Source: a virus | Virus record (IMG/VR): IMGVR_UViG_3300033993_002409 | Location: 1-24,295 of that record | DNA: 24,295 bases | Direction: 5' to 3' (one strand) | Shown: piece by piece, positions 9,101-24,295 of the stretch | How the letters are laid out: every line of letters begins with the position of its first letter | How positions within the stretch are numbered: position 1 is the stretch's first letter | Made by a program: the position numbers and the translations under genes | The notes under the pieces: generated by a model | What the model was told of the DNA's origin: nothing | The model's database searches: none | What the model saw: only the letters and a program-made list of their open reading frames with translations

Positions 9101-10418
9101 CGCCACATTGACCGTGCCGGGCTCCGCCATTACGCTCAACCCGATTGACGTTGTGGCAGCCACCGACGGCACGGCTACGCTGGCGTTCGATTTCGTAACG
9201 GATTGCGCTACCCCTGTTATTGTCTGGGAGCGCAAGCGACCCGTCGACACGCTGTGGGTGCCAATCCCCAGCGCCGACACCAAAACACTGCGGCTCACTG
9301 GGCTGGCTCCGGACACATCTGGACTGAACGTCCGCGCGTCAGTGCGATGCAACGGAATCACCACTTACTCGTCGGTGGCGACTGTCGCAGTGGCTTCGTT
9401 CGAAATATTCACCAGCCATCCGGCCAGTCAACAAGTGTCGCCTGGACAGACAGTAACGCTGTCGTTCACGACTAGCCTGACCCCTGGCACGTTTTCGTTC
9501 CTCTGGCAGTATCGTCGCATGGGTTCCGGTTTCTGGAACACATGGACGGGGGCCGCGAGCGGTCAGTCGATTTCGTTTGAGGCTAAGTTTTTGGAGCACA
9601 ACGAGACGGAGTATCGCGTCGAGTTGTTTCCGTACTACGCGAACACGAGTCTCTACAGCCGAGTAGCCCGCGTGCAAGTAGGGCAAACGGGCGCGACCGT
9701 GCTTGTGGATGAAATGGTCGGGGCGCAGATTGTAGCGGTTGCCTACGCCAAAGGGGCATTTGTGGCCCTCAGCGATTACCAGACGCAAATCGCCCGCCGG
9801 TCCACAGACAATGGAGCCACGTGGAGGAACACGTTCCTTCCGGCGTCTAATTGGTGGGACGGCATCATATCCACTAACTCCGGGCGGCTGATTGCATACT
9901 CTTCTGGCAAGCCTGTTTATGGGTATGGCACCAGCATTCCGGCAATGCTGGTGCGAAGCGACGACGGAGGGCTTACGTGGGCTACGTTACCCACGCCTTC
10001 CATCATCAAAGATGAACTGAGGATGTTTTACCTGCCGTATCAAAACGCCATCCTTGCATTTTATCGCACGCAATACCCTACATATGGTGGTTTTGGTGGA
10101 TTTGCGGGCAACCTTGCGTCCTCAGCAATAACGATGGCCGTGTCCCTAAACGACGGGGCAACTTGGCAGGGAGGGTACACGTTGCCGTCGGCGGAGTCAG
10201 GCAACGGTCTTTATCACATCAGCGGCGTAGCGTCCAGCCCGTCTGGCAAGGTGGTAGCCTGCACGCAAGTCCGAAGCGTATTAGGCACGCTTCTGTTATA
10301 CCGCGACGTCGCCGCCTCCGGGTGGGGCCCGCTGCTCAAAGCAGACGATCTGTCATTGGTTGCCAGTTACGACTTGTATCCACGAGCCGTGCATGTTGGG
10401 GGCGTGAGAAGGCGTTAG
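6150..10418 (+). CDS. Giant tail-fibre/receptor-binding protein: Mtd-type N-terminus, Ig-like array, beta-propeller
   Basis: This 1422-residue protein opens with a motif typical of Mtd_N-type virion-anchoring domains (residues about 1-52: 'VRRDTAANWTASNPVLAAGE', then 'ETDTGKVKYGDG...W..LPY'). A linker with 'DHSHALPES' and 'HKHSTGD' follows. Eight Ig-like domains then start near residues 168, 258, 353, 459, 556, 901, 992 and 1083. Most carry the strand-C 'YQWQ/SWQ/QW' tryptophan and a 'Q(Y/F)RA' strand near the end. The fifth is interrupted by about 240 residues (580-820). Residues about 1180-1422 look like a sialidase/BNR-type beta-propeller, with Asp boxes at S1218-W1225, S1270-W1277 and S1332-W1339. 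AAGGGG at 6138-6143 supports the start. The likely role is binding cell-surface glycans or receptors. The propeller seems to stop mid-fold, and the next gene may complete it. Confidence 0.88.
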   Translation: MALVKLQVRRDTAANWTASNPVLAAGEPGLETDTGKVKYGDGVRNWATLPYSSGVTLGDTAPPTAGSASTGVSTQAARADHSHALPESLSSKTLSTSGNATVGGSLTVNGALVGGSHKHSTGDIQDFSSTVFSQLAAALKAGSNITAAVDSARQTITLSAAGAAATPLAITSDPVDAMSTDGTARFQARASGGSGTIAYQWEQSKDNGATWTPISNATGTMLALASLVTADDGNQYRMRATAGDQSVTTLPATLRTAAVAITSEPPDITTTIGSMVSLAVAASAGSAAVTYQWQKRGSSSDSWEDVPGATNSTYAYTATAASDADGDQFRAVAIALGASVFSRAATVKINGPSLALFSQPASTPDSGGTASFTVEPMGGTPPYTYQWQRLNGSNSTWASTDAFADIASGTSGVSGVTSKTLSLTSQNAAQHLRKYRVVVTDANSASVTSAEATLSTLSLQITLQPSRVSVTDGTVLPTDAFKSLGTADGGVTYQWQTSADAGTTWTNIAGATGANYGNFTATLPDNNKLYRAAITGDGQTLNTDAATLSVAPGAGLSLTQQPPATANVAGSTGFAVTPFNIQWAGVPTLVAVPSSYTRKTETYVYLEVLVRGEWGIPSFAQDSWLRRKTASSGSATWAYNLRDGLVASGTETVSPEFLDFATWNGERAALVPPVDPLGKAYLDFPPPPMTSVGQSALATARSPSLSPRELAAVRSRLVVQVRVFDQRSGFPNIVRYDQSVTSTEFDMRLDYPAIAQQQYRVGSGAWRTAGNANDTGTWNSGGVSVMGSVNGGSNSPSMPTIGQTVELRIVDTNGIVGPQPTNCTPTIQWYKQGGSFSISSFRSFTPSGSPVAITGATGNTLTLSAVTLLDAGQFYPVATCGSRTAEPANGRFHLAPQIAPLVITTQPSDATSALGVANFVVAFSGGDGSTPLISWQRLLPSGNWSTITGAVSATLSLSSLTATLNGSQYRAVIKVGEQTVTSRAATLTVPGSAITLNPIDVVAATDGTATLAFDFVTDCATPVIVWERKRPVDTLWVPIPSADTKTLRLTGLAPDTSGLNVRASVRCNGITTYSSVATVAVASFEIFTSHPASQQVSPGQTVTLSFTTSLTPGTFSFLWQYRRMGSGFWNTWTGAASGQSISFEAKFLEHNETEYRVELFPYYANTSLYSRVARVQVGQTGATVLVDEMVGAQIVAVAYAKGAFVALSDYQTQIARRSTDNGATWRNTFLPASNWWDGIISTNSGRLIAYSSGKPVYGYGTSIPAMLVRSDDGGLTWATLPTPSIIKDELRMFYLPYQNAILAFYRTQYPTYGGFGGFAGNLASSAITMAVSLNDGATWQGGYTLPSAESGNGLYHISGVASSPSGKVVACTQVRSVLGTLLLYRDVAASGWGPLLKADDLSLVASYDLYPRAVHVGGVRRR

Positions 10419-10442: not shown

Positions 10443-11591
10443 ATGAGCATAAGCACCAGGCCAGGCCCTAACACATGGGACTTGGAATACTATCCAGCCA
10501 CGTGCGTCCAGACGACTATAACGGGTACACGGTGCGTGCGGTGGGACTCTCGCCCTCCGGCAGGCACTGTGCTCACGGAAGGCGTTGTTCAGAGAGTCGT
10601 TTGGGTTCCGGATGTCGGCTTCGTCGCGTCTGCGCCGGGCTTCGGGTTCTGCATACTTTCTCTCGGCGGCAAAACATGGTCCCCAATGCCGGGAGAACTC
10701 TCGTTTGGCATGGCACCGGCCATTACGCACAACGGGCGGGCGTACGTTGGCTCTTACGTCGGCGTGACGCAACTGGCTACAATAAACGCAGAAACATACC
10801 CACAGGCCTATTTGACCAGCAGCCAGATTGACCATCCTGTGCCGGTCACTAATGGCGTGGCGGCCGGTCCGACGACCTTGACGTACGTGGGCGTTGGCGG
10901 GCGGCTGTCGTCCGTCCGGCTACTGCCGGAGTACGAGCCTGAGGACTCGCTAAAACCCTCGACGGTTCCGGCGGTGGGCGTGGCAATCGCGACCTCCCAA
11001 GCAGCAACGGTCGAGTGGACCGCTCCCGACTCCGCAGGGACGTCCTCGATCACCTCCTACATCGTCCAGTACACCGACGACGGCGGCGAAAACTGGACGA
11101 CCATCACGGGGCTCACCACCTCGTCGCCTCTCCAGCGCCGCCTGACGGGGTTGACAAATGGCAAGCAATATATGTTCCGCGTTGCGGCCGTGAACGCCTC
11201 CGGGCGTGGCCCGTACTCACTTCCGTCCGCTCCGTACACGCCGACCCCAAGTTCTCCGTCTGCCCCTACTGCCGTCACTGCTACACCGGCCGGTCCGCTG
11301 GAGACGGCGTTCATTGGCGGTGTGTCGGGTCAATACAACACGCGGGTGCGCTTGTCGTGGTCCGCTGCCGCAGACGGCGGCTCGCCCGTGACGGGCTACA
11401 TCATCCGCCGGTTCCCGCACGAACTGGAGATCGCTCGCACAGGATCGGCGTCCACGACGTTCACAACCGATCCGGCGCAGACGCTCCGGATGTTCCAGCC
11501 AGGAGACTCGTTGCAGTTCGACGTAATTGCCGTGAATGCGTACGGCCCGAGTCCGCCTTCGCAGCCATGCACCGCCTTTGTCCTGCGCTAG
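10443..11591 (+). CDS. Propeller-continuation plus fibronectin type III fibre protein
   Basis: This 382-residue protein starts at ATG 10443 with a weak AGGGA about 10 nt upstream. Residues 1-150 resemble further beta-propeller blades: 'VVWVPDVGFVAS' is blade-like, and S73-L-G-G-K-T-W79 is a degenerate Asp box. Two fibronectin type III domains follow, at about 173-270 (with 'ITSYIVQYTDDGG' and 'YMFRVAAVNASGRGPYS') and about 274-382 ('VTGYIIRRF', 'FDVIAVNAYGPSPPS'). The gene lies in the same frame as the giant fibre, separated only by TAG, seven sense codons and TAA. The two proteins may therefore derive from one ancestral gene or assemble as one receptor-binding unit. FN3 modules in phage fibres are thought to mediate surface adhesion. 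The FN3 calls are firm; the propeller call is inference. Confidence 0.85.
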   Translation: MSISTRPGPNTWDLEYYPATCVQTTITGTRCVRWDSRPPAGTVLTEGVVQRVVWVPDVGFVASAPGFGFCILSLGGKTWSPMPGELSFGMAPAITHNGRAYVGSYVGVTQLATINAETYPQAYLTSSQIDHPVPVTNGVAAGPTTLTYVGVGGRLSSVRLLPEYEPEDSLKPSTVPAVGVAIATSQAATVEWTAPDSAGTSSITSYIVQYTDDGGENWTTITGLTTSSPLQRRLTGLTNGKQYMFRVAAVNASGRGPYSLPSAPYTPTPSSPSAPTAVTATPAGPLETAFIGGVSGQYNTRVRLSWSAAADGGSPVTGYIIRRFPHELEIARTGSASTTFTTDPAQTLRMFQPGDSLQFDVIAVNAYGPSPPSQPCTAFVLR

Positions 11592-11600
11592 GAGGCGCTC

Positions 11601-12491
11601 GTGTACTACGCCGCACAGGACATCCTCGAATACCTGATGAACTCCGTCGGCGGCGGGGCGCAGGATAGCGAGCATCGCTTGCTGCGTGCCGCCGTGCATC
11701 ACGCCTACCGGGATGTGATGAACGCCCGCGACTGGAACTTCCATGTCGCCACCGGGACGCTTGATGGCGCTGGGGGCGGGAGCGGCAACGGCGTGACGTC
11801 GTTCACGCTCCCTGAGAACGTCAAGAACATCGACGCCCTCATCCCGCCACTGTCGCACCCCACAATCACGACCTACGTGACGCCATCGGAGTGGCAGCGA
11901 ATCAATGTCATGCTGCCCACACTCAACGCCCCGATCTACTGGACGGTGATGAAAGACCCGTCACTTCCGGATCGCTGGCAGATTCGCATGGCCGGGAGTC
12001 CACCCGACATCGTGTTCAACTATATCTACCGCCGGAAGCCTGTTCCGCTGCGGTATCTGGGCTACGAGCCTGACGCCCGCCAGCCGAACTTCTCCGTGAC
12101 GGGCGCTGTGCGGAGGTACGGCACCGCCGCCAACTTCCCGGAGGGCCTGTCGGGTCTGTATCCGTTCACGGCCCAAGAGATCATCGGGCTGTCGGGCAGC
12201 CTCGTCGGCACACCTCCGACGGGGGCCAAGACGGTCGTGTCGGATTACATCGACGCCAGCGACTCCATGTTCACCGCCATCCTTTCGGGGTGCGAGGTGT
12301 GGCTCGCCCGGATGAACGGCAAGAACGTCGAGGGTGCGCTCACCATCTACAACCGTGACCTGCGGCTGGCCTTCGAGGCCGACTCAGTTGTGCCTATCAG
12401 CGGACAGCGCACTGGCGGCGCCCGCCTCAGTCCGGCACGTGCGCTTGGATACTACTCCCCACCCGGTGCTGACACTGGGGTGCTGCCATGA
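11601..12491 (+). CDS. Head-to-tail adaptor, T7 gp11-like (tail tubular protein A-like)
   Basis: This 296-residue protein starts at GTG 11601 behind a perfect AGGAGG at 11590-11595. The N-terminal segment at residues 28-47 ('LRAAVHHAYRDVMNARDWNF') has the pattern seen in podovirus adaptor proteins: a helix with Ala/Tyr/Arg, then Asp-Trp-(Asn/Asp)-Phe/Tyr. A 'FTLPENVKNIDALI' strand and a 'YVTPSEWQRI' segment follow, comparable to the LPxD and wrapping motifs of that family. Such proteins form a ring under the portal. It sits immediately upstream of the nozzle genes, the same order as gp11-gp12 in T7-like phages. The stop overlaps the next start as ATGA. The family assignment is by motif resemblance. 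Confidence 0.7.
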   Translation: MYYAAQDILEYLMNSVGGGAQDSEHRLLRAAVHHAYRDVMNARDWNFHVATGTLDGAGGGSGNGVTSFTLPENVKNIDALIPPLSHPTITTYVTPSEWQRINVMLPTLNAPIYWTVMKDPSLPDRWQIRMAGSPPDIVFNYIYRRKPVPLRYLGYEPDARQPNFSVTGAVRRYGTAANFPEGLSGLYPFTAQEIIGLSGSLVGTPPTGAKTVVSDYIDASDSMFTAILSGCEVWLARMNGKNVEGALTIYNRDLRLAFEADSVVPISGQRTGGARLSPARALGYYSPPGADTGVLP

Positions 12492-13051
12492 AGGCCGACC
12501 AGTGGCCGGGACTCGTCACCAACGCCAGTCCGTACGCCATCCCTCTTGGGGCGGCCGTCGAGCAGACGAACCTCGTCTGCACTACGCCAGGACAAATCGT
12601 TTCTCGGGACGGAATGCGGAAGGTGGCCTGCGTCGGTGCCACCCCAGCACTGCTGGACTGCTACCCGTACGAGGCCAACGGCAAGACCTATCTCATCTCG
12701 CTTACGGCCGCCGGGCAGTTGGTGGCCTTCGAGAGCCCTGCGTACGGCGTCGAAACCTCCCGGCCCACAGACCCCTCCCTGTCTGCCACAGGCTCTCAGG
12801 TCGCGACCAGTTACACCTACCGCTACGCCACCTCGTCCACGCCTGCGGACCAGCCAGAGCCACCCCCGCCTGTGGACATGATCGACTCGCTGGACGGCGG
12901 GAACTCAACGCTTCTCGTGGCCCCGCTGTACGTCGCAGACGCCATGAACCTGTGTAGCGGCAGCGGGAAACTGGCCGAGATCGACGGAGGTTCCGCAGCC
13001 GATTCGTTCGTCACGCCCACCGTACCCGTCACGAGTCTGTGCAGCCTGTGA
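12488..13051 (+). CDS. Tail nozzle N-terminal protein (gp12-like, first part)
   Basis: This 187-residue protein shows the start typical of podovirus nozzle proteins: 'WPGLVTNASPYAIPLGAA', then 'TTPGQIVSRDGMRKV' at residues 32-46 (a beta-turn 'RDGMRK' close to the 'RDGmr' seen at this position), followed by 'TYLISLTAAGQLVAFESPAY'. The protein ends after 187 residues, far short of the 600-1000 residues usual for such proteins. The following gene in the -1 frame looks like the rest. A weak GGGGTG precedes the ATG, which overlaps the adaptor stop as ATGA, implying coupling. It is either a genuinely separate polypeptide of a two-part nozzle or the front half of a gene broken by a frameshift. Confidence 0.65.
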   Translation: MKADQWPGLVTNASPYAIPLGAAVEQTNLVCTTPGQIVSRDGMRKVACVGATPALLDCYPYEANGKTYLISLTAAGQLVAFESPAYGVETSRPTDPSLSATGSQVATSYTYRYATSSTPADQPEPPPPVDMIDSLDGGNSTLLVAPLYVADAMNLCSGSGKLAEIDGGSAADSFVTPTVPVTSLCSL

Positions 13052-16041
13052 TTACGACACGCTTCTCCAAAGACGCTCCGGTCAGCATGACGCAAGGGCG
13101 GCATGGCGAACTCATCGTCGCGCAGGGGAACGGCGTGCGACCAGCCCGCTGGTCCGGCTCCGGAGCAGCAGTGGACGCAGGCATGGACGCCCCGCAGAGT
13201 GCGCCCGGCGTGACGGTCGATAGCGGCGTCAAGTATTACATCGCCCGCGTGGATGTGACCAAGCCCGGTGCGTGCTACTACGCACCCCCTGTGGTGGAGT
13301 TCGACACGGGAGATGCGCCCCCAGAGCCGGAGCCGATCTATCGCGTTATCGACGGCTACGTGCCGCCGCCTGCTGTGCCACAAACCAAGCGCACGGCGAC
13401 AGCGGCCTCCTACCTCAACCAGTCCACCGTAGGCGAGATTCGTGTTCTCGACAGCGGCAAGGGGTACTCGACTCAGCCGACTGTCACCCTGAGCGATACG
13501 CATGGCAAGGGGGCCGTCATAGAGGCGGTGCTCGATGTGCCGGATACCGGCCCTGTGGACCCCACGAACAATCCAATAACTGGCCTTTCGCAATGGGAAA
13601 TCACGCAGGCCCCTCCTGCGGATAGTCCGGCGCGGTTTGCTTGCCTGGAGGGCGTGAGCCTAGACCTTCCCGTCAACGGCAATGGGACGTTCACGGTACC
13701 CAGCGGCACGTGGTACATCCGCGTGAACGGCGGAAGTCCGCGCATTGGCTGCGACCCCGCATTGCTGCCGGGCTGGACGAAATCCATTACCTACACGATT
13801 GCGGGCTGGACATCGGGAAGCGGTGCCGTTCTTCGTATCCGGTGGCTCGGAGGCCAGTGGGTTGCCACCATCGCAGGGTTTCTCAACTGCGCCTTTTGGC
13901 TTGGGGCTACGCAGCCGCGAGATGTCTCTGCGCGCCGGTTTGGCGCAAACTACGCCGACGAATCCACTATTACAGTCACGATTCATGCCATTGACGGCGA
14001 CCTTTCGGAAAAAGTGGTGTTTCAAGGCTACACAGCCGGGAACGTCAACAACACCGATGCTCCGCGCTACCCTGTCAAGTCGCTCACGCTCGTGAATGGC
14101 GGCAGCGGATACCTTGTAACGCCGCAGATCAAGATTACCTCGAACTCAGGATTTGGGGCGTATGCCACCTGCACCGTCAAGGATGGCAAGGTTGCAAACG
14201 TAACGCTGGAGAACAGCGGCGGCGGATACAAAAAGCCGCCAACTGTCGAGGTGGTGGCTGGTGGAGCAGAGGCGTTCGCCGTCTCTCGCCCGCACCTGCG
14301 TGGCAAGTACCAGTGCTACTACCGATACGTTGATGACACGCCGGAGGACAGGGGCGGCCCCATCCCAAGCAACCTCTCGCCGCTCAAAGAGATCGACGCT
14401 GGGGAGGGCTCGTCGGGCTGTACGTGGACATTCGCTGCCGCAGCGGGCCGAGCGAAGAAGGTGGAGTTGTGGCGCAGCACCGCCAACCAAGCCACGACGC
14501 TCTACCGCGTGGCAACGATTGAGGGCTCCGCCTACCCCGACACGTTGACAGACGAAGAACTGCGTGACCCGGATCGCGAAGGGTACGCCGCCATGCCCAT
14601 TGTCTTGCCGAACGGAGAACTGAACGCCAACCGATTCGGCGTACCTCCCAGCGACAAGGCTGTGGTCGTGCGGTTCCAAGACCGTTTCTGGTACGGCGTG
14701 GATACCGGCGGCAAGGGGCCGAACACGCTCTACTACTCAGAGGTGGACGAGCCGGAGAGCGTGCCGGACGCCAACGAGATTATCCTCCAGCAGAACGCCC
14801 GAGACGGCGATAGCCTGCGGGCTATGATCCCATTCGGCTCCACGCTCCTGCTCATGCAGCAGCGGCACGCCTATTCGCTTACGTTTGCCAAGAATCCGAT
14901 CCTCGACGCACAGGTCACGCCCATCGCGTTTCGCGGTTGCTTGACGCAGCGGTGCTGGGACATCCACGACGGCGTGTGTTATGTGGCCGACCAGCAGGGC
15001 GTGTACGCAATCACCCCGACCGGGCAGATTGAGAGCATCTCGGACGCCATCGCGAACGTGTTTCGCGAGGAGATCGACTTTGCCAAGCGCACGTGGGCCT
15101 TCCTCCTCGTTGACCCGAAGACGAAAGTGCTCCGGTTCTTTGCGGCGTTCAAACGAGACTCGTCTGGTGGCCTGCCGTCCCGAACTCTGTGCTACTCCAT
15201 CGACGCGAAAACATGGTGGTACGAGAAGCATCCGCAGGCGATCACTGGCGGCTCGCAGGCAAAACTCTCGAACGGCGACTTCCGTTGCGTGTACGGCGGA
15301 CAAAGCGGCCCGCTGCTGCTGAGTGAGGGAGCATACGACATTTCTCGCGGCGCTGTGCGATCCGTCACCTTGACGAACGCTGGCACAGGCTACCGAACGC
15401 CTCCGAAGGTGACGGCCTCCGGCGGCTGCGGTGCAGAGTTCCAGGCGTCCATAAACGGCTCTGGAAGCGTAACCGCCATTTGGATCGTGTCTCCCGGCTA
15501 CGGATACACGAGCGGCAACCTGACCATTTCGCCACCAGACGATCCGACTATCACCTCCCCCGTGACGGCCACAGCAACATTTGTGGCAACGTCCCTCACG
15601 CAGGACACGACGCTGTTCCCGACGTACCGTTTCAAGGGCGGCAACGCCGAATACGTCACCGATGCAATGGACCCGAAGGCCGCTGGCGTGCAGCCTCGCA
15701 ACATCCGCCTGTCGTACCAGCCGCAACTCCAGCCGTGCCCAGTATCGCTCCGGACGTACTACAACGGCTCGCAGCATCCTCGCGGCAACGTGGCCGTTCG
15801 CAATCGCGGGACAGGGTTTACGAACGACGGCGTGGACAATGCCGCCCGCCTCGACATGGCCGCCCAGAAGACCGCCACTGGCTACGACACCGGTACGGCA
15901 GTGGCGATGTTCTCTGGCCGCTCGCTGGACGACATTCGCTCGTCAGACAGGCACGTGTCCGTCGAGGTGGTGGGGCCACGAACTGGGTCGGAGCCGGTCA
16001 CTTTCTACCAGATTGAAGTAGATGGAACGGCAGGCAAGTAA
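13048..16041 (+). CDS. Tail nozzle protein (gp12-like main part) with GxGY beta-hairpin repeats
   Basis: This is about a 997-residue protein. I chose the GTG at 13048, which overlaps the preceding stop as GTGA like its neighbours; the frame also offers a GTG at 13039. Neither has a Shine-Dalgarno. Residues about 545-680 are nozzle-like: 'VVRFQDRFWYG', 'NTLYYSEVDEPESVPDANE', 'LLLMQQRHAYSLTF', 'GCLTQRCWDIHDGVCYVADQ' near residue 630. Five or six short 'GxGYxxxPxV' repeat units flank it. These repeats are common in phage fibre and tip proteins and fold as beta-hairpins. The protein likely forms the narrow tail tip and carries surface-exposed inserts. It lies in the -1 frame relative to the preceding gene. 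Confidence 0.7.
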   Translation: MITTRFSKDAPVSMTQGRHGELIVAQGNGVRPARWSGSGAAVDAGMDAPQSAPGVTVDSGVKYYIARVDVTKPGACYYAPPVVEFDTGDAPPEPEPIYRVIDGYVPPPAVPQTKRTATAASYLNQSTVGEIRVLDSGKGYSTQPTVTLSDTHGKGAVIEAVLDVPDTGPVDPTNNPITGLSQWEITQAPPADSPARFACLEGVSLDLPVNGNGTFTVPSGTWYIRVNGGSPRIGCDPALLPGWTKSITYTIAGWTSGSGAVLRIRWLGGQWVATIAGFLNCAFWLGATQPRDVSARRFGANYADESTITVTIHAIDGDLSEKVVFQGYTAGNVNNTDAPRYPVKSLTLVNGGSGYLVTPQIKITSNSGFGAYATCTVKDGKVANVTLENSGGGYKKPPTVEVVAGGAEAFAVSRPHLRGKYQCYYRYVDDTPEDRGGPIPSNLSPLKEIDAGEGSSGCTWTFAAAAGRAKKVELWRSTANQATTLYRVATIEGSAYPDTLTDEELRDPDREGYAAMPIVLPNGELNANRFGVPPSDKAVVVRFQDRFWYGVDTGGKGPNTLYYSEVDEPESVPDANEIILQQNARDGDSLRAMIPFGSTLLLMQQRHAYSLTFAKNPILDAQVTPIAFRGCLTQRCWDIHDGVCYVADQQGVYAITPTGQIESISDAIANVFREEIDFAKRTWAFLLVDPKTKVLRFFAAFKRDSSGGLPSRTLCYSIDAKTWWYEKHPQAITGGSQAKLSNGDFRCVYGGQSGPLLLSEGAYDISRGAVRSVTLTNAGTGYRTPPKVTASGGCGAEFQASINGSGSVTAIWIVSPGYGYTSGNLTISPPDDPTITSPVTATATFVATSLTQDTTLFPTYRFKGGNAEYVTDAMDPKAAGVQPRNIRLSYQPQLQPCPVSLRTYYNGSQHPRGNVAVRNRGTGFTNDGVDNAARLDMAAQKTATGYDTGTAVAMFSGRSLDDIRSSDRHVSVEVVGPRTGSEPVTFYQIEVDGTAGK

Positions 16042-16733
16042 TGTTCTCCGCACAGGCCGGGCAGATAGCCAACGCCCTCAAGTCGGCTGGCCTTGCGCCG
16101 GATGCCGCCCAGAAGATCGCCGCCATTCTGGGCAACGGCGTGCAGAACCTCACTCGCACGAACCCCGAGACGGTTGACCTCACGCCCGCAGCGATGCGGT
16201 ACGTGACGCCAGACAGACGGACGTACCAACTGCCGGGACTAGACTTCCGGCAGGGCGACCCAGACTACCGCTCCTATCAGTTCGAGACGAGCGAGGAGCG
16301 TCCGCGCCCCCAGCAGGCTGACACCCTGCGCCGCGAACCATCCCCGCAGCAGACCACCTCCACGTACCGCGTGAAGGGCGGGAAGTTCACGGAGGCCAAA
16401 GGCACCGGCGACTCCGTGCAGGTGGACGTACGGATCAACGGAAACGGTAGGGTCGCGCTTTTGGACCCGCAGAGCAACACTATTCTCGGGAAGAACGTCC
16501 GCTGCGAAGCAGACGATTCCGGCCTGCGTTTCTTCATCGAAGAGACTGGTACAGAATTAGTGTGGAAACTCCAACTCGGAGACTTCCTGTCCTCGCTAGG
16601 CACGGAGATGACGGTCGTGGAAGACGTTCGCCTCGTCGGGAACAGCATCGAGATCGTCAAGAAGCGCGTTCGCGTCTTGGCCTACGAAGACACCGCCAGC
16701 GGCTCGATTGAAACAACGTCCTGCCCCTCATAG
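16041..16733 (+). CDS. Hypothetical tail-region protein
   Basis: This 230-residue protein starts in a TAATG junction with the nozzle gene. The N-terminus (residues about 1-40) is an Ala/Gln-rich amphipathic helix pair ('AGQIANALKSAGLAPDAAQK', 'IAAILGNGVQNL'). The middle is a proline/arginine-rich linker. Residues about 110-210 look all-beta ('VQVDVRINGNGRVALLDPQS', 'LRFFIEETGTELVWKLQLGD', then 'VVEDVRLVGNSIEIVKKRVR'). No catalytic motif is visible and I do not recognise the family. Its place between nozzle and Cys-rich gene suggests a tail-tip or fibre-attachment role: helix for anchoring, beta domain for display. Confidence 0.75.
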   Translation: MFSAQAGQIANALKSAGLAPDAAQKIAAILGNGVQNLTRTNPETVDLTPAAMRYVTPDRRTYQLPGLDFRQGDPDYRSYQFETSEERPRPQQADTLRREPSPQQTTSTYRVKGGKFTEAKGTGDSVQVDVRINGNGRVALLDPQSNTILGKNVRCEADDSGLRFFIEETGTELVWKLQLGDFLSSLGTEMTVVEDVRLVGNSIEIVKKRVRVLAYEDTASGSIETTSCPS

Positions 16734-16735
16734 TC

Positions 16736-18532
16736 ATGGCACTTGCAACGCTAGGCGGAACACTTCTGCGGGTGGGCAACAGGCTGGCGCTGTCCATCGC
16801 CTGCTGCTGCAATCGGCTGTTCTGTCGTCAGGTGCGAGAAGACGAATGCGGCAACGCTGTCTACGACTGCGTGAGCGAGCAGGCTGAGTCAATCGGGCCA
16901 TGCACGGAATCATGCAGGCCGCCAGAAGACCCTTGTGAGTGCGGCCCAACGCTTCCGTGCGATGTGTGCTATGAGTGCATTGACCGCAAGTGCGAGCGGA
17001 TCGAGGACTGCTGCGCCGACGGCTCGCCCTGTCCAGAGTGCCAGAAGTGCGTCAACGGCGTATGCGTTCCCTGCGGCGCGTGCGAGAAGTGCGTGGAGGG
17101 CGTATGCGTGCCCTGCGGTCCCTGCGAGAAGTGCGAGGGCGGCGAGTGCGTTCCGTGCGATTCGGACGAGGACTGCGTGGAAGGGGAGTGCGTCCCGAAA
17201 CAGTATTACTGCTGCTGGGACGAGTGCCCGAACGACGAGTACGGCGACCCCAAAGACCCGCCGCCCTCGACGCACTGCCAGAACTCGCCGTGCGGCACTG
17301 GCTTGGACGACAACGACGAGCCCTGCGACCTGACGAAAAGCGGGCCGTATAACACGACGCAACTTTGTGCCGAGAACTGCCAGAAGTACGAGTGCGTGCC
17401 AGATGCGTGCGGCAATCGCGAGTGCCAGCCCGACCCCGACGGTGCCTACGACAGCAAGTCCGAGTGTTTGGCCGACTGCCCGGCAGACCCTTGTGCGGAG
17501 CCCTGCTCGTTCGCCGGAGCCAGCACTCCCGGAATCTACAGCATCGACGGGTGTGAACGCGACATCTGTGTGTCGTACGTCAGCCCGGATAGCCGCCCGA
17601 TCCGCGTGCAGATTTGGGGGCCGACGCTCGACAACAACTGCAACATTATCGCATCTCGTGTCATCAAGGCTGATTCCGACTGGCGGGGCGAAGAGTGCTG
17701 CGACTGCGACTCACGGCCAGCAGGAGACTTGGAAGGCGGACCGAAGGGGCAGATCACGTGGACTAAGCCACGTGGCGTGACATCCTTTGAGGTTGCCGTC
17801 CTGACTGCATGCGGGGCAACGGCCAACATCGACATCCGGTGCAGCGACGACTGCGGCGATCCGCCTGACCCTGACATGTGCCCGTGCGAGGATGACGACG
17901 ACTGCAACGACGGGTGCCACTGCTGTGACGGGGAATGTCAGGATGAGCCGTGCGAGGAGTGCGAGCCATGCGAGGATTGCGATGTAGTTGCTGCGGCCGC
18001 CGAACAGTCGGACGTTGACTGCACGCCCCCATTTGGGGGATGGCAATGGTACAAAACTCAACTCGTGTCGGAAATTGGTGGCGGCGACCCGGCGGTTGCG
18101 GATTCGTGGGCCGATGGATACCCGGAGGCGCTCGCTGATTGCAGGATGTTTTTAGTGCAGGACGTAAACAGAACGGAGGGCAGTTGCACGTGTGATATTT
18201 TCCTTGACGGCAACTTCGTGGAAAGCACATGCGCCTCTACGGGCTGGACGGAAGCAAGGAATCGCTTGATGGTGCTTCGGTGCCCCGATGGGGAGGAGGC
18301 GTACCTAGAGGACGTGACTGACGATGCCATAGTTACGGGCAGCGAACGAGCAGAGCCCGTCGAGCCCGGAGGAGACATTCCTTCCAAATGGGCGGGGTAC
18401 ACACTTAAAGACACGGACTGCTTGGTAGAGCAACCCGACCCGCCGCGACTTATCTGCGAGGGCGGCGAGCCGGATTGGTACGACACGCCAACGGACTGGT
18501 TGCCCGACCCCACAGTGGAGTGTGACCCATGA
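16736..18532 (+). CDS. Extremely cysteine-rich protein, probable virion surface component
   Basis: This 598-residue protein contains about 75 cysteines by my count (about 12%), mostly as C-x2-C, C-x3-C and CC. It begins with a Leu-rich helix ending in 'ACCCNRLFC'. Residues about 104-159 are a tandem 14-residue repeat of the type K-C-x-x-G-x-C-V-P-C-G-x-C-E. A region at about 260-370 is less Cys-dense and beta-like ('YSIDGCERDICVSYVSPDS', 'FEVAVLTACGATANIDIRC'). A second Cys/Asp/Glu-rich block spans about 378-425. The last 170 residues are a separate, more ordinary domain with 'GGWQWYKTQLVSEIGG'. The protein is strongly acidic and Asp-rich between cysteines. Possible roles are a disulfide-stabilised spike or fibre or a metal-binding protein. 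No Shine-Dalgarno is evident, so it is probably coupled to the gene before. I do not recognise a named family. Confidence 0.85.
   Translation: MALATLGGTLLRVGNRLALSIACCCNRLFCRQVREDECGNAVYDCVSEQAESIGPCTESCRPPEDPCECGPTLPCDVCYECIDRKCERIEDCCADGSPCPECQKCVNGVCVPCGACEKCVEGVCVPCGPCEKCEGGECVPCDSDEDCVEGECVPKQYYCCWDECPNDEYGDPKDPPPSTHCQNSPCGTGLDDNDEPCDLTKSGPYNTTQLCAENCQKYECVPDACGNRECQPDPDGAYDSKSECLADCPADPCAEPCSFAGASTPGIYSIDGCERDICVSYVSPDSRPIRVQIWGPTLDNNCNIIASRVIKADSDWRGEECCDCDSRPAGDLEGGPKGQITWTKPRGVTSFEVAVLTACGATANIDIRCSDDCGDPPDPDMCPCEDDDDCNDGCHCCDGECQDEPCEECEPCEDCDVVAAAAEQSDVDCTPPFGGWQWYKTQLVSEIGGGDPAVADSWADGYPEALADCRMFLVQDVNRTEGSCTCDIFLDGNFVESTCASTGWTEARNRLMVLRCPDGEEAYLEDVTDDAIVTGSERAEPVEPGGDIPSKWAGYTLKDTDCLVEQPDPPRLICEGGEPDWYDTPTDWLPDPTVECDP
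17045..17212 (+). repeat. 42-nt in-frame tandem repeat encoding 14-residue Cys motif
   Basis: Four consecutive 42-nt units start at 17045, 17087, 17129 and 17171, inside the Cys-rich gene. The first two units are close copies (KCVNGVCVPCGACE and KCVEGVCVPCGPCE). The third is more diverged (KCEGGECVPCDSDE), and the fourth keeps only the first half (DCVEGECVP). Synonymous third-position differences between units point to old duplication with selection on the protein, or to partial recombination between copies. Confidence 0.85.
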
Positions 18533-18996
18533 AAGTGCTGTCGCTTTCCTCTTTGCAGCGCACGGCCGCTCGTCGTCCTGAGGGATACCTGCAAGACGTT
18601 CTTTCGCACGCCTCAGTCGAAGGCGACGTCGTGACCATGCCGCGAGAGGCGTACCTGTCTCTTGTGCGGAAGTACCGTTCGCCCAATTCTGCAAAAAGGG
18701 TTGCTGTTCCGCCCAAGCCGACGCAGTTACCTCCCGCGCCTTCCGGTCCCGGCACAGAACTCAAAGCCCTCCTCAAGGACTGGCTGGGCATACAAGCCAG
18801 CCCTAACTGCTCGTGTAACGCCAGAGCCCGCCAGATGGACGAGTGGGGCCCGGACCTCTGCGAGCAGAACCTCCCGACCATCGTGGACTGGCTGGGAGAG
18901 CAGGCTGCGGCCCGGAAACTCCCGTTCGTGCGGTTTGCCGCAGAACAGGCCGTGAAACTGGCGATTCGGCGGGCACGGAAAAAGGCCGCTCGGTAG
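18529..18996 (+). CDS. Small protein with C-x-C...C motif, downstream partner of the Cys-rich protein
   Basis: This 155-residue protein starts at ATG 18529, overlapping the Cys-rich stop as ATGA, with GGAG 8 nt upstream. Residues 1-60 are basic and helical, and 61-75 form a Pro-rich linker. Residues 75-150 form the distinctive part: 'GTELKALLKDWLGI', C94-S-C96, 'NARARQMDEWGPDLC' with C111, then 'NLPTIVDWLGEQA' and a basic C-terminal helix. The C-x-C plus distant Cys could bind a metal or take part in disulfide exchange. I have a vague recollection of the same 'MDxWGPDxC' arrangement in planctomycete-like sequences, but cannot confirm it. Tight coupling suggests it works with the Cys-rich protein. 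Function unknown. Confidence 0.75.
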   Translation: MKVLSLSSLQRTAARRPEGYLQDVLSHASVEGDVVTMPREAYLSLVRKYRSPNSAKRVAVPPKPTQLPPAPSGPGTELKALLKDWLGIQASPNCSCNARARQMDEWGPDLCEQNLPTIVDWLGEQAAARKLPFVRFAAEQAVKLAIRRARKKAAR

Positions 18997-19034: not shown

Positions 19035-19385
19035 ATGACTTCCTACAACACCACCAAGCGCACCTACTCAGAGCCCTCTGTCGGCGGGTCTAGCTCGGTG
19101 ACGTTTGATTACACAGGGTCCGACCTCATCGCCAAGCTCCTCGAGGAGGAGGGCGGCCTGGAGTCGGCCCGTCAAGGCGCCCTGTACGACGGCGACATCA
19201 AGACGTCGCTGCAGGCAGGAGACCGCATTCGTCGGTTGCGTGGCCTTCGGTCCGGAATCGCGCCCGTGCGCGTTCGCGGCATGGAGTCCAGCTCCAAGCG
19301 CGAGGGGGCCAGTCAAGGTTACGAAGAGCAGACCCCATATTCTCTCGGATTCACGCCAGAGGAAGAGAAAGGAAAGAAGGGCTAA
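19035..19385 (+). CDS. Small hypothetical protein, start of the putative internal-protein cluster
   Basis: The protein has 116 residues; ATG at 19035 follows AGGAG at 19020-19024. A 38-nt gap, the largest in this part of the operon, separates it from the previous gene and holds no clear terminator or promoter. The protein is polar: a Ser/Thr/Tyr-rich start, a helical 'LIAKLLEEEGGLESARQGAL' segment at about 31-50, an Arg-rich middle ('RIRRLRGLRSG') and a Lys/Glu end. It has no membrane segment or recognisable domain. By neighbourhood it may be a minor or internal virion protein. Confidence 0.7.
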   Translation: MTSYNTTKRTYSEPSVGGSSSVTFDYTGSDLIAKLLEEEGGLESARQGALYDGDIKTSLQAGDRIRRLRGLRSGIAPVRVRGMESSSKREGASQGYEEQTPYSLGFTPEEEKGKKG

Positions 19386-19388
19386 GCC

Positions 19389-19706
19389 ATGTATTACGGC
19401 CAGCGCAACGTGCGGATGTACGATCCGGGCGACATCAAGAAGATCTCGTGGGACGTCGGGTCGCATGGCGCAGACGTCGGCAAGGAGATGACGAAGGCCA
19501 GCAACACGCTGGACGAACAAGACGCTCGCGCCCAGCAGGAGCACGACATGGGCATGCAGCAGTCCATGTACCAGGCAGCCCACGAGCGAAACCTTCAGGC
19601 CGCTGAGCAGCAGCGCCGGGCGTATGACTCGCAGACTGCCCGCGACGCCCAGCAGCGCAAGTTCAGCGTTCTCGACGGCCTTCGTGGCGCCATGTTTCGA
19701 GGGTAG
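19389..19706 (+). CDS. Small Gln/Ala/Asp-rich helical protein
   Basis: This 105-residue protein has ATG at 19389 with an AAGAAGGG ribosome-binding site, directly after the preceding stop. Residues about 30-95 are almost continuous helix rich in Gln, Ala, Glu, Asp and Arg ('QDARAQQEHDMGMQQSMYQA', 'AAEQQRRAYDSQTARDAQQR'), likely an amphipathic or coiled-coil rod. Such composition is common among internal virion and ejection proteins of podoviruses. No homology is recognised; the function is inferred from composition and location only. Confidence 0.7.
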   Translation: MYYGQRNVRMYDPGDIKKISWDVGSHGADVGKEMTKASNTLDEQDARAQQEHDMGMQQSMYQAAHERNLQAAEQQRRAYDSQTARDAQQRKFSVLDGLRGAMFRG

Positions 19707-19708
19707 GA

Positions 19709-20083
19709 ATGTACGCCAACGCAGTCGGACACAAGCCTGGTAATTCGGTTCTCGCTGGCCTTCGGGGCAAGGGAGATGCTGGGGCGTTTGCTAAGGGTCA
19801 GGGCATGGCTGCAGCTGCCGGCCTGAACCTGGAGGCGGCCAATCAGAACCAGCAGTTCGGACTCCAGCAGATGCAGGACGAAAGCAGCCTGCGCCAGAAG
19901 GACAGCCAGAACAAGTCCCAGCGGGCGGAGAACGAGTCGCAAGGCCGCATGATGAAGGGCGCACTTGCCAGCAGAAAGAACGTGTTCGACACATCCATGA
20001 ACTTCGACTACGCCGGCCTGAGAAAGCGTCAGGGCCTTCAGATCCAGCAGGCGCTCCTCAATAACCTGGCTAGGGAGTTCTAA
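19709..20083 (+). CDS. Small Gln/Ala-rich helical protein
   Basis: This 124-residue protein has ATG at 19709, three nt after the previous stop, preceded by GAGGG. It shares the composition of the gene before it: Gly/Ala-rich N-terminus, then Gln/Asn/Ser-rich helix ('LEAANQNQQFGLQQMQDESS', 'RQKDSQNKSQRAENESQGR') and an end with 'FDYAGLRKRQGLQIQQALL'. No transmembrane segment is visible. The TAA overlaps the next ATG. It may be a paralogue or structural analogue of its neighbours, but the similarity I can see is compositional rather than aligned. Candidate internal virion protein. Confidence 0.7.
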   Translation: MYANAVGHKPGNSVLAGLRGKGDAGAFAKGQGMAAAAGLNLEAANQNQQFGLQQMQDESSLRQKDSQNKSQRAENESQGRMMKGALASRKNVFDTSMNFDYAGLRKRQGLQIQQALLNNLAREF

Positions 20084-20619
20084 TGGCTGTGTTCGCCGAC
20101 CGGTCTCTTCCGCAGCAGACTCCATCACCTTTGGCGCCAAAGCCGGCGGGCCAGAGACAGGGCGCCACGCCCTCGTACGGCTTCATGCCGCCGATGGTGT
20201 CGGACTCTGCGGTAAGCGACCAGAAGAACAACCTGTACGCCGCCTCCGCCGGAGCGGGCCAGGCCGCCATGCAGGGCATGGATCGCGCAGGGCTGTCTCG
20301 TGGCAGGGGGCAGCAGCTGCGAGCGGACATGACTCAGGCAGGCGCCGACGTTCAGTCCGCTTCTGCAGCAGCCAAAACGGACATGGACGCCGCCAACTCG
20401 AACGCCCGCACTCGCCAGGCTTTCGAGACCGCAATGAAAGGGGAGCAGCTTGGCAACCAGAGCCTGCTCGAAGGACTCCGAGCGTCGGGTGTTCGCGAGC
20501 GATTAGCCAAGCAGGGCTGGCAGCAGGACCTGATCGAAGCCATGCGGCGCGGCCAGTTCGGCCTGGACTCGATGCAGCTCGACCTGTCCCCGTTCGTTCA
20601 GGCCATGTTCCGAAACTAG
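20083..20619 (+). CDS. Ala/Gln-rich hypothetical protein, candidate ejection protein
   Basis: This 178-residue protein starts at ATG 20083 in a TAATG junction with AGGGAG at 20072-20077. A Pro/Gln-rich disordered start (about 1-40) is followed by a long Ala/Gln/Asp helix ('MTQAGADVQSASAAAKTDMD', 'AANSNARTRQAFETAMKGEQ') and a C-terminal amphipathic segment with 'GWQQDLIEAMRRGQFGLDSM'. This Ala/Gln-rich helical make-up resembles internal head proteins that leave the capsid with the DNA. The resemblance is one of composition only. Confidence 0.7.
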   Translation: MAVFADRSLPQQTPSPLAPKPAGQRQGATPSYGFMPPMVSDSAVSDQKNNLYAASAGAGQAAMQGMDRAGLSRGRGQQLRADMTQAGADVQSASAAAKTDMDAANSNARTRQAFETAMKGEQLGNQSLLEGLRASGVRERLAKQGWQQDLIEAMRRGQFGLDSMQLDLSPFVQAMFRN

Positions 20620-20628
20620 GAGTTATTG

Positions 20629-20931
20629 ATGTCCTCTCACGAAGACGACGATCGCGGCGAAGACGTAGGCAAGCTCAAGCGATCTGCGCTCGAGCAGCTC
20701 GTGATGAAGTACCGGGCCAAGCGGCTCAAGGATCGCGATCCAGACGACCAGAAGAAGGCCGACGACGAGGCCGAAGAAGAGCGCAACAAGCTCTCCGACC
20801 TACACGAAGAGCAGCACGGCTCCGCTCCTAAGCTGGCCGTCGAAAAAGACGACCTGCCTGAGGGTCTCGAGGACGCCCTCGAAGAGGACGACGAGGACGA
20901 AAAGAAGCCCGCCAAGAAGCAAAAGGCTTAG
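20629..20931 (+). CDS. Small highly charged acidic protein
   Basis: This 100-residue protein starts at ATG 20629, six nt after AGGAG at 20618-20622. An in-frame TTG three nt earlier is less likely. The sequence is dominated by Asp, Glu and Lys, with acidic blocks ('DDEAEEERNK', 'LEDALEEDDEDEKK') and a basic 'KYRAKRLKDRD' helix in the middle; it ends KKPAKKQKA. It is probably largely disordered or helical. Possible roles include a scaffold-like or charge-balancing internal protein. No family is recognised. Confidence 0.7.
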   Translation: MSSHEDDDRGEDVGKLKRSALEQLVMKYRAKRLKDRDPDDQKKADDEAEEERNKLSDLHEEQHGSAPKLAVEKDDLPEGLEDALEEDDEDEKKPAKKQKA

Positions 20932-20958
20932 GCCGCACTAGGAAGGTAGGTACGGCCT

Positions 20959-23900
20959 GTGGGCGCACTCGCAGATTTAGTCCGAAAGCGCATGGCCGAT
21001 GCGCAGCAGGCCGCCGACCAGGCCGCCATCGCCCGCGCAGCAGATGCAAGACGGGCGGCTATGGCTGGAGAGGCTGCAGATGCGCCGATCCCTCCTCGCC
21101 GCACCCCGTCCACTGGCAATCCGCTTCTCGAGGCCCTTGAAGTAACAGAGGTTCAGGCTCCGTCAGCCGGCGGCCCTGACCCCGCAGAGCTTGCTCGCCT
21201 CAGCCAGTCGCAGTTCTCGCCTATCACGGGAGCCGGAGGTGCGTTCCAGCAGATTCCTTACCAGCTGGACCCTGACGTCAGGCAGGAGATTCTGACTCGC
21301 TCCGCTGTAGATGCAGACGGCAACCCCGTCATGGCCGAAACCGGAACCCGGCCCACCCGCCTGGTGAAGCGGCGCAGTCGCGGCGAAGGAGGCTCGGACG
21401 CAGAGCGCATGTGGCTCACTCCTATCGGAGACGGCCGCTTCCAGATCTCTTCGGAAGGCGGTACCACTCTTGATACAGTCGCCACCGAAGACCAGGTCCG
21501 CGATCTGGTTCGGGTCGGTGGCTGGGAGTGGGACTCCGGACCGAAGATCGACGTCGCTGCGCCTCTACCTGACCCGCAGATGGTTGGGCGTGCGCTCGTT
21601 GAGTATTCAAAAGAAGCTGGCGCGGTCGGCAATCTGGCGCGTGCTGTGGCAGACCTGGAGGTCTTGCGTAAGGCGGACCCGCAGCTGTACGAGCAAGCCA
21701 TCGGCGTTGCGGGCGGTGGCACGGTAGACGAAGCCACTCCCGTAAATGTTCAGTCCGGGCTCAAGCTGGCCCAAGATGCCGCTCGCGCAACAGCCGTAGC
21801 TTCCGACCAGCCTGCTGGGGCCGCCCGAGTAGGTATCGGCGAGGCGGACATCCCGACCACCGCAGATCCCAGAAGCGCCGACCTGGCTGCCCGCGTTGCG
21901 GCCGCCAGGTCAGGAGCGTCTCCGCTTGGCGTGCGCCTGCCCACGAATGACCTGAGCACGCAGATCCAGGTAGGAGCCGGACAGGCACCAGTGGCGAATG
22001 CTGTGCAGGGCGGCAGCGAGCTTGTGCGCCCGCAAGAGTTCCCGCCCGAAGCATGGGGTAGCACTCCAAACGAACTGCCCGGCGGGGAGCCTGGTCGCGG
22101 AACTTACCAGCCGATTGTCAGGTACTCACTGCCGGAGGGCGAGCTTGGCCCAGAAGTTCCCATCGGAGTCAGCGGACAAGACGTCGGCGTTCTTGGCGGA
22201 CGCAGGCGCTCCAGCTCTATGGACGTTGGTGCGCAGGGCGAAGCCTTCGTTGTTCCGCAGGATGTGCCATCTGGCCCGCTCGAGCCTATGCCTGGCCCTC
22301 AGCCCATGCGGCCAGATTTCACAGTCGCCCCAGACGGCACCGTCTTTCCGACGATGGACGCCCGCTCTTCGTCTGTGCTTGACGACCTGCTTCCGAGCGA
22401 GTCGCCAGCCATGCAAGGCAGCATGGCTTTCCAGATCAATCCGGGAAGCTGGGCGTCCGATATGTTCGGCGGGCGGCGTGACGATCTCGCTGATCTGATC
22501 CGTTCCGCTCAGGGCATTGATCCGTTTATGGTCAGCACTGCCGATATGCCGGTGCAGTCTGCGTCTGATTTCATTTCGTCTCTGCCGCCTGATGTTCGCG
22601 CTGAATGGGGCCGTTCGGGAATGCCGCGAATGGGCGGAGCAGACACGGTACAGATGAACGCTACGCTGCGTCCAAGCGCAGTGCGCGATGCCGCTGGCCC
22701 GACTTATTCAGCAGATGGCCTTCCTACCGGCGGCGGAAACGCCACCATTCCGAGATTCATCACAGACGCGGAGCTGGAGCAGGCGTTCACCCGCCAGCAG
22801 CCAGTTCCCGGCGAGAGGTTTATCACCAACAACCAGCCGAGATTCTCGCCAGAGAACATCGCGGAGGTGGAGCGCCGCGTTGAGGAGCTGGTAGAGCTCC
22901 GGCAAGCCCTTGAAGCACGGGCCAACTTCGCAGAGCAGGCCGCCCAGCAGGGCCGCATGACGATCGAGGAGCTCAACCGGACCCGCACGGAGGTGATGAA
23001 CCAGATCGGCAACCTGAACCAGGAATACGACCAGCTGGTGAATAAGGTGACGCTCAGGCAGCAGCTGCGCAGCACTCGCCCCGAGCGCATGGCCGCCGAA
23101 GACGCAGCCCGCAAGCAGCGGAACGTGATGGACGATCGGTCCACCGAAATGCGATACGCCGCCTCCAACGTGCAGTCCGAGATCAACCGCCTGGAGGGAC
23201 GGCTCGACGAGGAGGGCCTGACATACGGCGAGCTGGATCAAGACGCACTTCGTCGCCAGGCCGGCCAGGATGTCGCTGAGCGGGGCCTGCAACAGCAGAC
23301 CGACGTCGCAGATATCAATCAGGCGCTCTCTCAGGGCAGCGGCTCGCCAGACGACTTGTCGGCTGACGAACTTGGTCAAATCGCCGACGACGTTCTTCAG
23401 CCCAAGCGCGACCCGAACGCTCGGGGCCGCAGCGAAGACACTGGCGTAACCTACTCTCGCCCCGCCGCGTTTGGCAGGTACGACTCCAGGACTCCAGACG
23501 GCCGGCCGAGCGAGGAGTTCCTGCGCGAGGTCGCCGAGAGGCAGCGAGAGATCGACGCTCTTATGCCCACAGACTCCGCACTTCTTTCAGAGAAGGAGCG
23601 GATTGCCATCGCAAAGAAGCAGGCGAAGTTGCAGAAGCAGCTCAATAAGGAGATGGCGCAGTGGTCGGGCGACGCGCAGGGCAGCGCTGGAGTCAACCTG
23701 CCGACGGTGAATTCTCGCAAGACTGCGGGCGCAGCGCAGGCAGCTATGGTCGACAAGCTTCTGACGGGTTCGCCCGAAGAGCGCATGCAGGCACTCAACG
23801 ATCTGTTCTCGTCGAAGGTGCGTGGAGAGTACACGGCCTTCAAGGATCCAGACACTGGCGACATCACAGCGCCAAAGCCTGGCGAGGCCATGCCGGACGC

Positions 23901-24295
23901 TGGCACCGAGATGATCCGCGACATGGACGAGGCGAACCAGCGCTGGGATACGCGCCTGCAGAAGTACGTCGGCACTGGCGAATGGCGGCCGTTCGATGCG
24001 GCGCGTGACGCTGGCCGCGAAGACGAGATTCGGCTGCAGAACTTCCAGCCTGTGCCGGTGAAGGTGCGGTCAAGCGAGGGGGCCTTCGACAACATCCAGA
24101 AGATGGCTGCGGATCCGCGAATCGGCTCTGTCGAAAACCTGATGTACCAGGTCCTGCGGCTGAACGCTGACGCATCTCGCAACATGGCTCCCGACGCCCT
24201 GCTGGGTGCGGCACAGCGACTGGCAGCCGACGTCGAGCGCGTGGCACCACGACCGGTATCGGCCGATGCTGGCGCGCGGGTCGGTACGCCGAGCT
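20959..24295 (+). CDS. Very large coiled-coil-rich protein, candidate internal virion/DNA-ejection protein (partial, runs off window)
   Basis: A frame opening at GTG 20959 stays open for 1112 codons to the end of the window, so the C-terminus is missing. AGGAAGG near 20940 lies rather far upstream, so an internal start such as the ATG at 20992 is also possible. Residues 1-45 are an Ala/Arg/Gln helix. Much of the first 600 residues is Gly/Pro/Ala-rich and low in predicted structure. Residues about 633-760 and 850-905 are heptad-like charged helices ('VERRVEELVELRQALEARAN', 'KERIAIAKKQAKLQKQLNKE'). No transglycosylase, protease or other enzyme motif is visible in the portion present. Size, helicity and the preceding small proteins fit the large internal proteins of podoviruses (T7 gp15/gp16, P22 gp16), but this is inference. 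Confidence 0.8.
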   Translation, partial: MGALADLVRKRMADAQQAADQAAIARAADARRAAMAGEAADAPIPPRRTPSTGNPLLEALEVTEVQAPSAGGPDPAELARLSQSQFSPITGAGGAFQQIPYQLDPDVRQEILTRSAVDADGNPVMAETGTRPTRLVKRRSRGEGGSDAERMWLTPIGDGRFQISSEGGTTLDTVATEDQVRDLVRVGGWEWDSGPKIDVAAPLPDPQMVGRALVEYSKEAGAVGNLARAVADLEVLRKADPQLYEQAIGVAGGGTVDEATPVNVQSGLKLAQDAARATAVASDQPAGAARVGIGEADIPTTADPRSADLAARVAAARSGASPLGVRLPTNDLSTQIQVGAGQAPVANAVQGGSELVRPQEFPPEAWGSTPNELPGGEPGRGTYQPIVRYSLPEGELGPEVPIGVSGQDVGVLGGRRRSSSMDVGAQGEAFVVPQDVPSGPLEPMPGPQPMRPDFTVAPDGTVFPTMDARSSSVLDDLLPSESPAMQGSMAFQINPGSWASDMFGGRRDDLADLIRSAQGIDPFMVSTADMPVQSASDFISSLPPDVRAEWGRSGMPRMGGADTVQMNATLRPSAVRDAAGPTYSADGLPTGGGNATIPRFITDAELEQAFTRQQPVPGERFITNNQPRFSPENIAEVERRVEELVELRQALEARANFAEQAAQQGRMTIEELNRTRTEVMNQIGNLNQEYDQLVNKVTLRQQLRSTRPERMAAEDAARKQRNVMDDRSTEMRYAASNVQSEINRLEGRLDEEGLTYGELDQDALRRQAGQDVAERGLQQQTDVADINQALSQGSGSPDDLSADELGQIADDVLQPKRDPNARGRSEDTGVTYSRPAAFGRYDSRTPDGRPSEEFLREVAERQREIDALMPTDSALLSEKERIAIAKKQAKLQKQLNKEMAQWSGDAQGSAGVNLPTVNSRKTAGAAQAAMVDKLLTGSPEERMQALNDLFSSKVRGEYTAFKDPDTGDITAPKPGEAMPDAGTEMIRDMDEANQRWDTRLQKYVGTGEWRPFDAARDAGREDEIRLQNFQPVPVKVRSSEGAFDNIQKMAADPRIGSVENLMYQVLRLNADASRNMAPDALLGAAQRLAADVERVAPRPVSADAGARVGTPS

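Follow-up and report, generated by a model that had tools for sequence, protein, structure and literature searches.

A cysteine-rich protein and its overlapping partner gene form a widespread two-gene cassette in tail modules of environmental phages

Phage virion proteins are expected to be cysteine-poor, and the question raised by IMG/VR record IMGVR_UViG_3300033993_002409, whose entire 24,295 bases constitute the window analysed here, is what a protein with 75 cysteines is doing in a phage tail module. The pair formed by this cysteine-rich protein (CRP) and the gene that overlaps its end is an instance of a two-gene cassette that is widespread and had not been described. The reading that we favour, to which we assign a probability of roughly 0.58, is that CRP would act as a fast-exchanging adhesin of the tail tip, stapled by disulfides and served by a dedicated assembly or thiol-handling partner.

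A cysteine-rich gene in the tail module

The CRP open reading frame (ORF; 16736..18532, + strand) begins with ATG and encodes 598 aa, of which exactly 75 (12.5%) are cysteine, matching the approximate figures (~75 cysteines, ~12%) of the first-pass annotation, and the product is acidic and proline-rich (70 Asp, 55 Glu, 56 Pro, 2 His). Nucleotide shuffling of the ORF gave a mean of 2.8% Cys and a maximum of 4.8% (500 shuffles), the median for background ORFs of ≥200 aa from related loci is 1.0% (95th percentile 3.4%), and the genes adjoining CRP in the window contain 0–2.7%. The spacings CC, CxxC and CxxxC, all claimed previously, were found together with CxC, and a regular C-x2-C-x4-C-x2-C array occupies residues 99–141. 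Against two orthologues, dN is about 0.43–0.45, dS about 1.8–1.9 and dN/dS ~0.25; among the window, L077 and L078 proteins dN spans about 0.43–0.56, and 69 of 72 aligned cysteines (96%) are kept, compared with 135 of 462 other residues (29%). The gene is therefore real, these substitution rates indicate purifying selection, and the conservation pattern is what would be expected of a disulfide- or metal-stapled, fast-changing adhesin.

Several regions can be distinguished along the + strand. The N-terminal segment (aa 1–25; 16736..16810), a predicted helix of the form GxLLRVGNxLAxSxxCCC, is a probable anchor, and a similar motif opens many unalignable CRPs of the same slot; the residues preceding the first cysteine (SIA in the window, GVQ in L077, SLQ in L078) do not, by eye, form a standard lipobox. 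It is followed by a CxxC array of predicted beta hairpins repeating C-x2-C-x4-C-x2-C (aa 67–154; 16934..17197) and by two four-Cys modules that end YxC..C...C....GxYxSxxxCxxxC (aa 157–248; 17204..17479). The cysteine pattern as a whole is one of tandem four-Cys modules of 25–40 aa each. The module of aa 157–248 recurs in the 745-aa CRP of L155 (L155:7767-10004; 87 Cys), which shows the modules most clearly, with at least 12 in tandem, each of 25–40 aa. The most conserved core (aa 265–370; 17528..17845) is a predicted beta-sandwich, and the variable C-terminal region (aa 430–598; 18023..18529) is unalignable between orthologues, no alignment of the C-terminal third being possible among the window, L077 and L078 proteins.

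No family match for CRP was found in Pfam, PHROGs or PDB sequences, which agrees with the earlier statement that no named family has this architecture, and a match to a metallothionein family was likewise sought in Pfam and PHROGs and not found. As a direct query CRP had no match in IMG/VR, INPHARED phages or PDB, a profile of the CRP alignment had none in GTDB genomes, and the four-Cys module consensus returned a single marginal match. The structure prediction advised in the first pass gave a poor AlphaFold model of the full protein (pLDDT 54.8) with no Foldseek match at E ≤ 0.001; a weak, non-significant likeness of the core to adhesin, lectin and CBM jelly rolls was dropped for this reason and is not claimed.

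The placement among tail and virion genes that was initially described is borne out by the window. Upstream lie genes for the terminase (1230-2918), the portal (3242-5263), a 1422-aa tail fibre (6150-10418) with Ig-like and BNR/sialidase-type repeats and an Mtd_N (major tropism determinant N-terminal) domain, and a protein that matches tail families (10443-11591). Between portal and adaptor, the gene set of several relatives is shorter. A 296-aa protein without a family match (11601..12491, +) appears adaptor-like by position and sequence style, and a 1000-aa virion protein (13039..16041, +) matches head-closure and baseplate families, its position suggesting a podovirus tail nozzle. Directly upstream of CRP is a conserved 230-aa protein (16041..16733, +), homologues of which also occur in relatives that lack CRP. 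Downstream (19035..24294, +) lie probable internal or ejection proteins, small ones that are Cys-free and mostly helical and one of >1100 aa.

The overlapping partner gene and its CxC domain

The CRP stop and the start of the next gene overlap as ATGA (18529..18532, +). The partner thus encoded (18529..18996, +; 155 aa) consists of a non-canonical N-domain and a conserved CxC domain (GPGTELKALL...PNCSCNARARQMDEWGPDLCE...). The family sharing the CxC motif is present on about 376 IMG/VR contigs. Of the loci retrieved by the partner alone, 79 had an ORF immediately upstream; with a CRP threshold of ≥4.5% Cys, this ORF was a CRP in 71, and CRP and partner overlapped by exactly 4 bp in 71 of the 79. 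In one relative (L094:5779-6149, G003) the partner gene is split over two frames, being either disrupted or affected by an assembly error. Comparison of the 62 partners of the family alignment (A4) with Pfam, PHROGs and NCBIfam gave no consistent or significant family. In the AlphaFold model of the L078 copy (pLDDT 92.2), the N-domain is small and runs beta-alpha-alpha-beta-beta, and the CxC domain is formed by four helices; no relative was found among PDB structures, and the fold search returned one uncharacterised viral match, A0A6J5QC46.

The CxC domain also occurs in other contexts. It is fused to a CRP in L104, and in L105 to an AhpC/TSA-type thioredoxin-like domain with CGYC, this fusion adjoining a Tat-type exported protein with 14 Cys. 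The two L105 genes (482-1390 and 1387-2715, in a Methylococcaceae MAG), encoding the thioredoxin-like CxC protein and the protein with the Tat-like signal, also share an ATGA overlap and are followed by a PqqD-like gene. Dedicated thioredoxin-like proteins of the MauD type serve the maturation of Cys-rich exported proteins, and L105 is similar in that an exported Cys-containing protein is encoded next to a thioredoxin-like protein that ends in a CxC domain, whereas the phage partners carry no thioredoxin domain and any enzymatic role is putative. Among ten related phage records, no phage-encoded thioredoxin or glutaredoxin was found. Glycosyltransferases with a C-terminal CxC domain are encoded at L106:8237-10315 and L107:8435-10369, as if, to judge by these fusions, the domain recruited enzymes to Cys-rich substrates; they adjoin Thr- and Cys-rich phage proteins with 52 and 64 Cys, respectively. 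At the Planctomycetia genome loci L284, L288 and L291, a CxC-domain protein with another N-terminus is followed by a glycosyltransferase-25-like gene, and in L288 it is preceded by a Ser-rich repetitive ORF. A Pirellulaceae MAG encodes a 310-aa CRP with 45 Cys and no NPLP end (L280:452-1384; see below), followed by a CxC partner (L280:1387-1770) whose N-domain is different again and resembles the one in L092.

CxC motifs occur in metallochaperones, and the cysteines could serve metal binding instead, the CxxC array holding Zn or another soft metal, the partner acting as metal loader and CRP being a metal-stapled tail protein or a scavenger. Although the CxxC spacing with CVPCG knuckle-like strings (aa 99–141) and the near invariance of the cysteines agree with this, as does the motif of the partner, we consider it unlikely: the protein has only two His and no metallothionein or zinc-ribbon family match, it consists mostly of spaced four-Cys modules and a beta-sandwich with aromatic residues, and the thioredoxin-like fusion of L105 points to thiol–disulfide chemistry. 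The metal-loading device first suggested is conceivable but gained nothing in its favour, given the His count and the absent metallothionein match. Metallothioneins resemble CRP in high cysteine content and CxC/CxxC spacing, but CRP is ~ten times longer, with aromatic residues, modules and a beta-sandwich, and the 598-aa chain shows neither a family match nor the short, Cys-dominated metal-cluster form.

A C-terminal tag that covaries with the partner N-domain

CRPs of unrelated sequence usually end in NPLP. An exact NPLP end is present in 38 of 52 dereplicated loci, most others being one change off, and this is the unbiased frequency, since a second set of 88 NPLP proteins, which differ in their last 40 residues, was selected by the tag itself. 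In these 88 proteins the sequence just before the tag is close to random and third codon positions vary freely, so that NPLP is conserved as protein; an explanation as a DNA-level or overlap artefact was dropped because third codon positions vary and the window has the overlap without NPLP. A scan of IMG/VR with the NPLP-stop/MITC-start DNA junction alone retrieved 98 stretches, and the upstream ORF had ≥4.5% Cys in 55 of 60 dereplicated junction loci. The scan also revealed three kinds of Cys module C-terminal to the partner N-domain (ERGYTLDEV..., hereafter ERGY). Besides CxC partners, there are partners with a CxxC...CxxCGC...CPxxKW module (L199, L205, L239, L246, L273) and with a CGC..R...LN module (L188, L190, L265), and these junctions indicate that the Cys modules are interchangeable on the ERGY N-domain.

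Tag and ERGY domain occur together in 52 loci, ERGY occurs without the tag in 3, the tag without ERGY in none, and 6 have neither (Fisher p = 1.5e-6, a value that is too small because the sequences are related). As immediate neighbours in the DNA, tag and domain could be swapped as a unit. The loci with neither are the window, L077, L082, L091, L092 and L103: the window CRP ends in ECDP, and its partner keeps the CxC half and lacks the ERGY domain. The window is thus an outlier with respect to the tag, and this part of the argument is not directly applicable to its CRP. Three NPLP ends located away from a partner were considered as independent support and dropped; they were left uncounted because relic-like partner starts come next. 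In L151 (8918 onward), a partner start that is truncated (MTTCHR*) comes after an NPLP stop and precedes a second CRP with the real partner behind it, an arrangement that looks like a relic of cassette insertion. Neither NPLP nor hypervariable Cys-rich tail proteins were covered by any paper in the literature searched.

A C-terminal proline adjoining the stop can slow termination, and NPLP could accordingly be a nascent-chain pausing signal that aids translation of the overlapping gene rather than a tag read by the partner. The frequent ATGA overlap (71/79 loci) would suit such a role, but the window and L077 have the identical overlap and no NPLP, and the tag goes with the ERGY domain and not with the overlap, making pausing quite unlikely. 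Tentatively, we regard the tag as part of a widespread, previously undescribed tag-addressed assembly system of tailed phages, in which NPLP would be an address on unrelated, fast-exchanging CRPs, read by a small ERGY adaptor with interchangeable Cys modules (CxC; CxxC..CxxCGC..CPxxKW; CGC..R..LN) that brings CRPs, their thiols protected, to the tail tip; this is possible, though short of probable.

Distribution, probable hosts and proposed function

Relatives were reached through 75 loci retrieved with the terminase and two with the 230-aa protein encoded upstream of CRP, and in these the CRP slot lies 3' of the tail-tube genes and 5' of the internal proteins. Orthologues with 40–52% identity are present in L077 (10693-12570; 625 aa, 81 C), L078 (10690-12432; 580 aa, 73 C) and L010/L094 (L094:4355-5782; 475 aa, 45 C). 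CRPs of L082, L083 and L084 are also orthologous, and the orthologues in G007, G009 and G006 are more distant. In G011, G017, G004 and G001 the slot is filled by proteins with 9–11% Cys that are alike mainly in an N-terminal segment ending CC or CCC. Of 15 podovirus-like records compared, 11 fill the slot with unalignable CRPs, 10 of them with the CxC partner and one (G001) with another Cys-motif partner; the other four have neither CRP nor partner, and this joint absence counts as one or two events because they form two close pairs. In podovirus-like relatives the slot comes after the tail-tube genes, and in siphovirus-like phages the cassette comes after the tape-measure and distal-tail genes. 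CRP is thereby encoded in a tail module and in a conserved slot, as is expected of a virion tail protein. That four relatives live without it would also fit a secreted or cytoplasmic factor (for host take-over, superinfection exclusion or thiol buffering) placed among tail genes by chance, but this is distinctly improbable given the same slot across virion types with tail genes directly 5', a conserved N-terminal segment with a variable body as is typical of adhesins, and no evident signal peptide.

Partner matches in GTDB comprise four Planctomycetes MAGs, one Methylococcaceae MAG and one archaeal MAG, mostly Pirellulales/Planctomycetaceae. In a sampled search, the CxC partner was found in 24 of 398 Planctomycetia genomes (the class of the Pirellulaceae MAG) and in 1 of 369 Gammaproteobacteria genomes (the class of the Methylococcaceae MAG, the one being the query itself). 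Planctomycetia are probably the host group of the cassette phages, including the window virus, and planctomycetes are probably the target of the adhesin. The planctomycete envelope is stabilised by disulfides and rich in Cys and Pro (PMC3035269), and Cys-rich YTV-domain cell-wall proteins occur in Planctomycetales (PMC8567305). The earlier idea of a host-surface mimic draws slight support from these envelopes via the probable hosts. YTV proteins and CRP are both Cys-rich, likely disulfide-rich and associated with the same probable host group, whereas CRP is a phage gene in a tail operon with different modules and no similarity in family searches (no Pfam match and no YTV string in the sequence). 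Despite the Planctomycetia bias of the partner and this wall chemistry, a covalent adhesin that exchanges thiols and disulfides with the crosslinked protein wall, or mimics it, is very improbable, as no YTV-like similarity was found in CRP, intramolecular disulfides would account for its cysteines without exchange, and many Cys-rich modules of relatives look autonomous.

The adhesin reading is the one with which we proceed. In a phage adhesin cassette, CRP would be the half that varies and would most likely belong to the tail tip; in it, an N-terminal anchor is followed by small four-Cys modules, a beta-sandwich and a fast-exchanging C-terminal region. Its cysteines would probably be reduced in the cytoplasm, the stapling disulfides probably forming after lysis, when the protein is outside the cell. 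The downstream gene that overlaps CRP would supply a dedicated partner that assembles or protects CRP, its CxC domain handling the Cys-rich chain and, in most members, its N-domain probably reading the NPLP tag; in the window both tag and tag-reading domain are absent and the partner N-domain is of another kind. Of the three functions initially put forward, a spike oxidising after lysis fared best, as the slot after tail genes and the tandem four-Cys modules suit it; the conserved two-gene cassette had been missed.

The closest analogy is with Tfa pairs, each a tail fibre with a tail-fibre assembly chaperone encoded downstream (Mu/lambda and Alteromonas phages V22 and A5; PMC7289586, PMC10579305). 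Here, too, a small, conserved partner gene comes after a variable adhesin gene, distant phages exchange the module and the partner is thought to act on the adhesin. The CRP cassette similarly combines a variable adhesin-like protein and a conserved partner that are gained and lost together, but its partner matches no Pfam family (none of the 62 partners resembled a known tail-fibre assembly family in Pfam, PHROGs or NCBIfam), its adhesin is built of Cys-rich modules, and neither the C-terminal NPLP tag nor interchangeable partner Cys modules have been described for Tfa pairs. Most likely, by this comparison, the cassette works like a fibre–chaperone pair without belonging to a fibre–chaperone family by sequence, and it has no counterpart in the family libraries or literature searched.

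Hundreds of environmental phages appear to encode disulfide-type modular proteins in their tail modules. The NPLP tag and the ERGY/CxC partner offer simple handles at the sequence level by which the whole class can be found and tested, and they give a candidate role to a large set of phage genes annotated as 'hypothetical'. If the proposed reading is true, the cassette would provide phages of little-studied bacteria, the planctomycetes, with an easily shuffled host-recognition scaffold, and the dedicated partner would overcome the difficulty that a disulfide-rich protein has to be made in a reducing cytoplasm.
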